Assembly (NCBI GenBank): GCA_031262695.1
Contig: JAISHF010000002.1
Span: forward strand, 1-64,000
DNA: 64,000 nt
Direction of reading: 5' to 3'
From: Candidatus Nomurabacteria bacterium
Lineage (GTDB): Bacteria; Patescibacteriota; Saccharimonadia; Saccharimonadales; Saccharimonadaceae
In this document: one piece after another, positions 18,342 through 48,601 of the stretch
Numbering within the stretch: the first letter of the stretch is position 1
How the letters are laid out: every line of letters begins with the position of its first letter
Notes under the pieces: generated by a model
Database searches by the model: none
What the model was told of the DNA's origin: nothing
The model's input: only the letters and a program-made list of their open reading frames with translations
Translations under genes and position numbers: made by a program

Positions 18342-19410
18342 TTACTTTAAGTATATCGCCTCCCGAGCGTAAATTCAACTCATTTTTGGCAAGTTCTTGA
18401 ATAATGTCGCCGATTTCGCCCTGCATGGCGACAGGAATATTGCTACGTGAGTAGTGAATACGGTGGTCAGTAATGCGATCTTGAGGGAAATTATAGGTGC
18501 GGATTTTCTCGCTGCGGTCGCCCGAACCAATGAGGGACTTGCGGGCGTCGGAGGCTTTTTGACGTTCTTCGGCCTGCTGTTTTTCTAGTAATCTTGATCG
18601 CAAGATTGTCATAGCGCGCATACGGTTTTGGAGTTGCGAGCGCTCATCTTGCATAGCGACGACAATGCCAGTCGGCAAGTGGGTAATGCGGACAGCAGAG
18701 TCGGTAGTATTGACGCTTTGTCCGCCATGACCACCTGAGCGATAGATGTCAATACGGAGGTCGTTGGGGTTAATGGCAAGCTCTTGCTCGGCGACCTCTG
18801 GCAAAACGGCGACCGTGACGGTAGAAGTATGGACACGACCTTGGCTCTCGGTGACTGGCACGCGCTGGACGCGATGGACGCCGCCCTCAAATTTGAGGCT
18901 GCCGTAAGCATTGGCGCCTTCAACCCGAAAAATCACCTCTTTGTAACCGCCAGCGTCGCTGAGGTTCTCAGAAAGCAGGTGGGTTTTAAGACCAAGGCTG
19001 TTAGCATAGTTAATGTACATTTTATAAAGTTCGCTCGCGAATAGGGAGGCCTCGTCGCCACCAGCGCCTGCGCGAATCTCCACGATTGCCGGCTTGTCGT
19101 CATTCGGGTCCTTGGGGAGGAGTTTTTCGGTGATTATGGCTTGGAGCTCGGCAATTCTTGCCTCGCTCGCAGCAAGGTCTTCGCGTGCAAGGGCAGCAAG
19201 TTCAATGTCATCACTATGGGCTAGTTCTTTTGCCTCTGTCTGAGATTTTGCAGCATTTTTAAGGGCTTGGCTAAGCTCTAGTAGCTCGCCAATCTCGGCC
19301 AGTCGCCGCGATTTTGCCGCGAAATCAGGGCTTTGGTAGGCGTCAGGTCGTGCTAAAAACTGGTTGATTTCGGCCTGCTCGGCGATTATTTTTTCGCTGT
19401 CAATCTTCAT
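18325..19410 (-). CDS. prfA: peptide chain release factor 1
   Basis: Reads UAA and UAG and triggers peptide release. 361 aa with the catalytic GGQ in [14 protein letters not shown] and the RF1-type downstream block [18 protein letters not shown]. The ATG lies seven bases after TATAAT (minus strand, 19418-19423), consistent with a leaderless or near-leaderless mRNA. First gene of prfA-prmC. Confidence 0.98.
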
Positions 19411-27553: not shown

Positions 27554-27620
27554 ATCATTCATATTATATCACACATAAAACCGCCATAATTATCGTTTTT
27601 TGTGGTATAATATATATTAT

Positions 27621-47154: not shown

Positions 47155-47221
47155 AATAATAGTTTACCACAATTTTAGCGTTTAGAAAAATGCTTGAGGT
47201 AATTCAAGCGTTTTTCACCAC

Positions 47222-47262
47222 TAAAAAGGCCAGCGAGGGTGGGCTTCGCTGGCCTTTTTACC
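47222..47262 (-). terminator. terminator of the ncRNA candidate
   Basis: On the minus strand GGCCAGCG, 11-nt loop, CGCTGGCC, then TTTTTA; preceded by AAAAA. Confidence 0.9.
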
Positions 47263-47556
47263 CTTCGACTCGCCTTTTGGGCCCACCACCGTGGAGCATG
47301 ACCCACCTCATCATCCTTGGGGCCTGCCGTTCAAAGGGGTTGTCCTGATTTTGTATGTCTCAAAAAGTGGAGGTAAGATTACTTTTTGACCCGAAGGCCC
47401 TAGGAGGATACAAAAGCAGGCAACACCTTTCAGGAGTAAAGACCAAGCATAACCGGCGGATATACCGCCTAAAAAAGTCTTTACTTTGTCCTGAAATATG
47501 TTATTATTTATTTAGGTGCGGATTAAAGGATGCTTTTTACGGCTCTCCCTTAACTC
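47222..47556 (-). ncRNA. free-standing structured RNA candidate (~335 nt)
   Basis: The 517-base gap between der and dprA holds a complete minus-strand unit: promoter 47563-47591, start near 47556 and terminator 47222-47262. Nested stems are evident: CAGGA/TCCTG around AGTAAAGAC/GTCTTTACT around GGCGG/CCGCC; and AAAGG(T)GTTG/CAACCCCTTT around TTTTGTAT/ATACAAAA around CAAAAAGT/ACTTTTTG. Two single-stranded CCTCC segments could pair with Shine-Dalgarno sites. It lacks the marks I know for tmRNA, RNase P RNA, SRP RNA and 6S RNA. A plus-strand ORF here (47355-47612) crosses the promoter and looks spurious. Confidence 0.65.
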
Positions 47557-47562
47557 TCTACC

Positions 47563-47591
47563 ATTATATCACACTGCAAGCACAATGTCAA
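47563..47591 (-). promoter_or_regulatory. promoter of the ncRNA candidate
   Basis: Minus strand TTGACA (47586-47591), 17-nt spacer ending GTGTGA, TATAAT (47563-47568): one of the best promoters in the window. Confidence 0.85.
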
Positions 47592-47671: not shown

Positions 47672-48601
47672 ATGACAATTAAGCGCTTGACAAAGTCAGA
47701 AAATCAGTTTTTGGACCATTTTCCAGAAGAAACCGCCTTTTTTGTGCGCGGAAAGTTGCCCGAAAAGCGAGTTTTGACCGTCGCAATCGTTGGGTCGCGC
47801 AAGCCGACTAAATACGGCGAGGAAACGGCTTATAGTGTCGCCTACGAGCTAGCGCGGCAGGGGGTCGTGGTGATTTCAGGCTTGGCAATAGGGGTGGATG
47901 CGGCGGCGCACAGGGGTGCGCTGGATGCTGGCGGGACGACGATGGCTGTTTTAGCAAGCGGAGTTGATAAAATCACCCCTTGGGCAAATACGACACTCGG
48001 AGAGCGAATCTTGGCGAGCGACAGTGCAATTATCAGCGAATACCCCAATGGCACGCAGGCGTTTGCGTCAAATCTATTGGCGAGAAATCGGGTCGTATCA
48101 GGGCTGGCGGACGCAGTAATTATTGCAGAAGCGGCAGCAAAATCAGGCACGTTAGCAACAGCACGTCATGCGATGAGGCAAGGGCGGCCGATTTTTGTCG
48201 TGCCGGGGCGATTAACCGACAAAATGAGCGCTGGTTGCCTGCTTTTACTTGAAAAATACCCTGAAAAAGTTCATATTTTCACTTCAGCCAATAGTCTGCT
48301 ATCCTCGCTCCCGGCGTTGCATTTTTCGGCCGACATAGGAGAGGGGATCTCTCCTCTTGCTCCTCGCGACGCTCGGAGCAATTCACCTCACAGTCGGCCT
48401 CAAAATGCAAGCGCCTCGCGCGAGGAGCGCAATTCGCGCGGAGTCAAAGCGGCTCACATTCTCCCGAAAAATGCACGAGCCTCGCACCAAGTGCAAGATT
48501 TGATTAGGTCTGGAGCAAATTCAACCGAAATTACCGAGCAACTCGGCATCTCGGCGAGCGAACTCGCGATTATTCAGACGGAATTAGAATTATTCGGCTA
48601 A
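47672..48601 (+). CDS. dprA: DNA-processing protein DprA
   Basis: Binds incoming single-stranded DNA in transformation and loads RecA. 309 aa: Rossmann-like domain with VAIVGSRKPTKYGEETAY, VISGLAIGVDAAAHRGAL, LLARNRVVSGLADAVIIAEAAAKSGTLATARHA and RPIFVVPG; C-terminal winged-helix-like QVQDLIRSGANSTEITEQLGISASELAIIQTELEL. Between them lies an Arg/Ser-rich insert (SREERNSRG region) from a palindromic DNA segment. Convergent with recA; with the pilin at 50819 it supports natural competence. Confidence 0.95.
   Translation: MTIKRLTKSENQFLDHFPEETAFFVRGKLPEKRVLTVAIVGSRKPTKYGEETAYSVAYELARQGVVVISGLAIGVDAAAHRGALDAGGTTMAVLASGVDKITPWANTTLGERILASDSAIISEYPNGTQAFASNLLARNRVVSGLADAVIIAEAAAKSGTLATARHAMRQGRPIFVVPGRLTDKMSAGCLLLLEKYPEKVHIFTSANSLLSSLPALHFSADIGEGISPLAPRDARSNSPHSRPQNASASREERNSRGVKAAHILPKNARASHQVQDLIRSGANSTEITEQLGISASELAIIQTELELFG
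48338..48428 (+). repeat. in-frame palindromic insert in dprA
   Basis: GGAGAG-GGGAT-CTCTCC (48338-48354), then 10-bp arms GCTCCTCGCG (48359-48368) and CGCGAGGAGC (48419-48428). Codes for the linker between the Rossmann and winged-helix domains. Confidence 0.7.

Follow-up and report, generated by a model that had tools for sequence, protein, structure and literature searches.

A conserved, multibranched RNA gene with an exposed anti-Shine-Dalgarno loop in Saccharibacteria

The minus strand between der and dprA, at positions 47222-47591 of the window (the whole stretch of DNA analysed, 64,000 nucleotides (nt) at the beginning of one contig, JAISHF010000002.1, of a 652-kb Saccharibacteria genome), is, as judged from its sequence, occupied by a stand-alone gene for a structured non-coding RNA of about 335 nt. 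That this gene represents a conserved RNA family is regarded as practically certain: The gene boundaries, the helices P3, P3a, P4 and P5, order-wide conservation, presence in single copy, an exposed ACC(C)UCC hairpin loop complementary to Shine-Dalgarno (SD) sequences and a conserved C-rich terminator loop were demonstrated computationally in a comparison of genomes that are mostly metagenome-assembled (MAGs).

Gene boundaries, fold and covariation

The free-standing gene is bounded by a near-consensus promoter and an intrinsic terminator that enclose a strong fold. The hexamer TTGACA (47591-47586) is separated by a 17-nt spacer from TGATATAAT, which contains the -10 hexamer (47568-47563); among the 64 homologues with a parsed promoter, TTGAC was present in 63 and the extended -10 motif TGnTA in 61, and transcription is expected to start near 47557. 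The RNA folds with -121 kcal/mol compared to -97 ± 5 kcal/mol for 100 shuffled sequences, none of which was as good (z = -4.5). The initial annotation had described a complete minus-strand RNA gene of this length without a plausible open reading frame (ORF), and both parts of that description stand. Small ORFs within the RNA region (43 amino acids on the minus strand, 85 and 52 amino acids on the plus strand) are unlikely to be genes; the homologues differ in this region by the length of their hairpins. A reading frame starting after GAGGTGGGTC was rejected because its ATG lies in the P5 stem, where it covaries to ACG. Between the terminator and der, another short hairpin with a run of T's behind it (GCTTGAATTACCTCAAGCATTTTT, 47187-47211) possibly serves as a back-up terminator. 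The features are as follows:

47222-47591, minus: RNA gene of about 335 nt (promoter, fold and intrinsic terminator)
47586..47591, minus: -35 hexamer TTGACA
47563..47568, minus: -10 hexamer TATAAT, with a TGA extension just upstream
47522..47555, minus: P1, 5' hairpin, variable in sequence with the hairpin retained (fold and homologues)
47500..47519, minus: joining segment GCACCTAAATAAATAATAAC; most other genera have GCACCTTATACCCCCTATTCTAAC here, a third C-rich stretch
47425..47497, minus: P2 hairpin, large in the window's genus and short in others (fold and homologues)
47408..47424, minus: P3, 5' strand of a long-range helix (shuffle and strand-swap tests)
47398..47410, minus: TATCCTCCTAGGG, first CCTCC segment of the initial annotation; genus-specific, mostly paired
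47362..47387, minus: P3a hairpin, AAAAAGT-loop-ACTTTTT; a stem of at least 4 bp was scored in 52/67 homologues
47369..47380, minus: anti-SD loop AAUCUUACCUCC, second CCTCC segment (conservation and unpaired probability)
47340..47356, minus: P3, 3' strand, ending immediately before P4
47331..47339, minus: P4, 5' strand CCCCUUUGA (covariation)
47295..47329, minus: P5 hairpin, GGCA/UGCU and GGCCC/GGGUC, with GAGGU in the loop (double change)
47283..47294, minus: P6, short variable hairpin (fold and homologues)
47261..47268, minus: P4, 3' strand UCGAAGGG (covariation)
47223..47259, minus: intrinsic terminator, GC-rich hairpin with U-run and conserved loop AAGCCCACCCUC at 47235-47246 (sequence and fold)
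47672..48601, plus: dprA, head-to-head neighbour (tblastn)

The comparison with relatives that the initial annotation had proposed revealed compensatory changes that support the helices P3, P4 and P5. In 48/49 homologues, the long-range helix P3 outperformed at least 98 of 100 shuffled sequences, its matched strands reached -22.3 kcal/mol versus -11.9 kcal/mol when strands were swapped between dissimilar homologues, and its outer pairs co-vary (GUUAG/CUAAC, GUUGC/GCAAC, AUUGC/GCAAU, GUUAU/AUAAC, GUUGG/CCAAU). In the P3a stem the letters partly change and the pairing is kept (AAAGU/ACUUU, UUUCU/AGAGAA, AAGGU/ACCUU). P4 occurred in 10 strand combinations among 71 homologues with 8-9 of its 9 pairs preserved (e.g. 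CCCUUUGAC/GUCGAAGGG, CCCUCUAAC/GUUAGAGGG, CCUCUUGAC/GUCGAGAGG and CCCUUUCAC/GUGGAAGGG), a result that supports the helix and is no independent proof of it, as the 3' strand was picked by best pairing; the P3 strands were also chosen with some regard to pairing. Independent of such choice is the joint analysis of P4 and P5, according to which 99.1% of the cells were paired and five pairs were changed on both sides, with at most 56% pairing in slid controls. In P5, a double change from GC to AU (GGCG/CGCU to GGCA/UGCU) was found in 7/19 sequences.

In several genera (L081-L089, L106, L121, L022), P5 is replaced by a larger domain of 100-170 nt that has conserved pieces of its own (GACTATCCAGTAGTG, CAGGCGC and GACGCTTC); such domain replacement also occurs in other large non-coding RNAs. 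Two tertiary pairings were considered and not retained: A kissing interaction between the anti-SD loop and the GAGGU of P5 would comprise 5 bp in some genera, but the genera with ACCCUCC retain GAGGU, so the two do not covary; GCACC/GGUGC, a pseudoknot immediately 5' to the 3' strand of P4, is present in many genera, but is mismatched in the window and in a second genus (g2), and is not claimed.

The C-rich loops

The initial annotation had placed two unpaired CCTCC segments in or next to hairpin loops, of which one could be substantiated. CCTCC is present in 67/69 homologues, compared to 13 expected after shuffling, and lies in the 3' part of the P3a loop; the mean unpaired probability of this loop is 0.97 versus 0.36 across the whole RNA. 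The corresponding window site, CTTACCTCCAC, forms an exposed, conserved loop (unpaired probability 0.96). The loop is about 9-13 nt long; most genera have ACCCUCC in it, and the window's genus, along with some others, has ACCUCC. The other segment, TATCCTCCTAGGG, is mostly paired over TATCCT (unpaired probability 0.01-0.29) and open just at CCT; it is changed even within the window's genus, where the homologue L038 has CCTTCC.

The terminator loop, CCCACC, constitutes a second C-rich loop that is equally conserved and predicted to be unpaired (0.94), and CCCCC was present in 36/69 homologues. The complement of the terminator loop, GGUGGG, lies upstream in 67/69 homologues versus 2.6 expected; an internal pseudoknot between the two is possible and would compete with P5.

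Distribution and relation to known RNAs

With BLASTN, the whole RNA was recovered from all three remaining genomes of the genus at 84-86% identity, and further genera yielded its core; the named records with close homologues are Saccharibacteria (TM7) MAGs. A 21-base core pattern retrieved 30 stretches from a set of 84,980 genomes, and the 26 of these with the RNA come from records named as Saccharibacteria or as related candidate-phylum MAGs; the core-pattern matches L036, L041, L042 and L062, as well as a pattern match in another branch of the phylum (L122), lacked the architecture and were rejected as chance. A covariance model of P4-P5 (R1) was run on 380 genomes from across the phylum and matched 14, every one of them from the family of the window, and a 17-base terminator-loop pattern was found in one copy each in 49/52 genomes of the family and in two genomes of a second family (reversed control: 1/198). 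With permissive filters, R1 produced weakly scoring matches in nine further families within the order, and inspection by eye revealed in all nine the promoter, a TTACCCTCC or CTACCCTCC loop, the P4 strands, the CCCACCC loop and dprA in head-to-head orientation. According to these searches, the RNA is near-universal in the window's Saccharibacteria family and spread over the order, in at least ten further families, as a multibranched molecule of under 300 to over 400 nt. Strict searches yielded no homologue outside the order, so that the outer limit of the family is not fixed, and phage records contained no match.

In the Rfam search, no family reached its gathering cut-off in the window stretch, matches at E<=10 were at chance level only, and 18 diverse homologues gave no credible match at E<=1; the RNA thus represents a new, Rfam-ready family. 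No description of it was found in the open-access literature searched, and a prior report is possible in subscription journals, most of which the search did not cover. The first assessment that the RNA resembles neither transfer-messenger RNA (tmRNA), RNase P RNA, signal recognition particle (SRP) RNA nor 6S RNA was corroborated. It matched neither RF00010 (RNase P RNA) nor the tmRNA criteria (tRNA-like ends and tag reading frame, RF00023), and the genome carries its genes for both RNAs at another place, on contig C5 (tmRNA, L107 4163-4543, minus; RNase P RNA, C5:27882, L107 7883-8220, minus). They lie about 3.3 kb apart, an arrangement also seen in relatives, and the tmRNA is missed by ARAGORN. 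In a set of 21 genomes (that of the window and its relatives), neither SRP RNA model (RF00169, RF01854) gave a match, and the RNA-binding M domain of Ffh was absent from 21/21 of them and present in 14/14 controls; these Saccharibacteria hence appear to be devoid of SRP, as reported for Parcubacteria (PMC4508563). Since Ffh is absent, a diverged SRP RNA would have no partner. The 6S model (RF00013) matched neither the RNA nor, with one weak exception, the relatives, and the multibranched fold is unlike the long 6S hairpin with its central bubble. The exception (L032, G062:C51:16563-16716; 32.4 bits versus a cut-off of 46.4) is located about 400 nt from the RNase P RNA and may be a divergent form of 6S RNA in this order.

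Pairing of C-rich motifs with SD sites is the demonstrated mode of action of Listeria LhrC and the UCCC-motif small RNAs (sRNAs) of Firmicutes (PMC4132741). The likeness to these Gram-positive sRNAs proposed in the initial annotation fits as a mechanism: Like LhrC, RsaE, RNAIII, SprD and FsrA, the window RNA has its own promoter and terminator and presents an unpaired C-rich motif complementary to the SD sequence. As to size and conservation the likeness fails, since UCCC-type sRNAs are mostly small (about 50-250 nt) with simple stem-loops, whereas the studied RNA is larger than most, multibranched, built on long-range helices, single-copy and near-universal in its family; its loop is ACC(C)UCC, and there is no sequence relation. 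In Xanthomonas, sX13 also possesses C-rich loops, which act independently of Hfq on G-rich ribosome sites (PMC3771888), but it is short, with three simple stem-loops, and belongs to unrelated bacteria. The alphaproteobacterial ar14 (RF02344) likewise carries an anti-SD-like CCUCC in a hairpin loop; its match, however, scored 19.0 bits versus a gathering cut-off of 58.8 and fell on the terminator region instead of the P3a loop. OLE, raiA and GOLLD are large, ornate bacterial RNAs whose function was unknown at discovery; they resemble the studied RNA in being large, strongly structured, clade-wide and found through comparison alone. The latter matches no such Rfam model and differs in having an anti-SD loop and in being a single gene driven by a promoter.

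Possible function and rival explanations

The preferred reading, held tentatively and with somewhat less than even confidence, is that of a constitutive regulator whose C-rich loops pair with G-rich ribosome-binding sites. The strong promoter would provide constitutive transcription; the P3a loop, perhaps joined by the terminator loop and, in most genera, by the 5' UAUACCCCC stretch, would pair with the G-rich SD regions of mRNAs, and the ACC(C)UCC loop would thereby compete with the ribosome and block 30S binding, while the folded body would confer stability or bind a protein. The RNA would thus broadly repress or tune SD-led translation. The window's organism does use SD sites: The mean pairing energy to the 16S tail (its sequence was taken from general knowledge and not from this genome) is -5.3 upstream of ATG versus -2.7 in a control stretch, and clear SD motifs precede 15-16 of about 51 ORFs. 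Several observations weigh against the regulator: Known C-rich sRNAs are mostly smaller, as said above, and less conserved; CCUCC is missing from L055, and the P3a stem is not clear in L034, L043, L059 and L060; the terminator loop may be engaged internally with GGUGGG (67/69), though at the expense of P5; and the conserved P4/P5 sequence and GGGUGGGUUGAAGGG are left unexplained by SD pairing.

Near-universal retention in single copy exceeds what is usual for regulatory sRNAs, and the strongest rival is therefore a housekeeping RNA bound to the ribosome or to protein, in which ACC(C)UCC would serve as a fixed site for binding or would imitate the 3' tail of 16S rRNA (GAUCACCUCC). This is a serious, if less probable, explanation: It would suit the order-wide occurrence, the large fold with its invariant unpaired segments, the constitutive-looking promoter and the unusual housekeeping RNA set of relatives that are without SRP and nearly all without detectable 6S RNA. 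It is weakened by the lack of any protein partner linked to the RNA, by a loop variation in sequence and length that suits pairing better than a fixed protein site, and by a likeness to the 16S tail that hardly extends past ACCUCC. The vacant roles of SRP RNA (0/21) and 6S RNA might also be taken to indicate a diverged known housekeeping RNA (SRP RNA, 6S RNA, tmRNA or RNase P RNA); this highly improbable reading is mostly refuted already by the tmRNA and RNase P RNA genes on contig C5, the missing Ffh domain, the Rfam results and the multibranched fold.

The gene neighbourhood bears on two further explanations. The RNA and dprA are head-to-head in 63/74 loci of the family and in 10/10 further loci (tblastn), and cultured Saccharibacteria are naturally transformable (PMC10633639), so that a role in DNA uptake as regulator of this competence gene might be envisaged. 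Such a role is improbable: In one clade (L046, L048, L057, L064) the RNA adjoins pth and is apart from dprA, small genomes often keep their gene order, and a specific pairing between the RNA and dprA was not apparent. In the window, der lies on the same strand and begins 68 nt past the terminator, as would be expected for a cis-acting leader or attenuator of der. A conserved same-strand downstream gene was not found, however: The gene past the terminator varies, with der in this position only in the window's genus and an oppositely oriented pth often present elsewhere, and a separate -10-like box directly precedes the ATG of der. Therefore, the RNA is, judging from these gene orders, neither obligatorily tied to dprA nor a leader, and the latter explanation, to which we assign next to no probability, is refuted for the family as a whole.

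Saccharibacteria, whose genomes are small (0.5-1.6 Mb among those searched), have seemingly lost SRP and detectable 6S RNA, yet they retain an RNA of about 300-400 nt with helices under selection, a degree of retention normally seen with RNase P RNA or tmRNA. Should the RNA govern access to the ribosome as in the preferred reading, it would rank with the largest and best conserved of the known anti-SD RNAs, and it may serve these tiny parasites as a core regulator of translation. Direct tests of how translation is controlled in the candidate phyla radiation would then come within reach because cultured, genetically tractable Saccharibacteria exist (PMC10633639).

A more far-reaching, and rather unlikely, proposal is an essential, order-wide housekeeping RNA that masks SD sites and thereby determines how far translation is SD-led and how far leaderless; it would then favor leaderless over SD-led genes. 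As to the start sites of the window, TATAAT ends exactly 6 nt before the ATG in about ten of 51 ORFs (e.g. those starting at 27620 on the plus strand and at 19410, 52206, 34772 and 52910 on the minus strand), so leaderless mRNAs are probably numerous in this Saccharibacterium.
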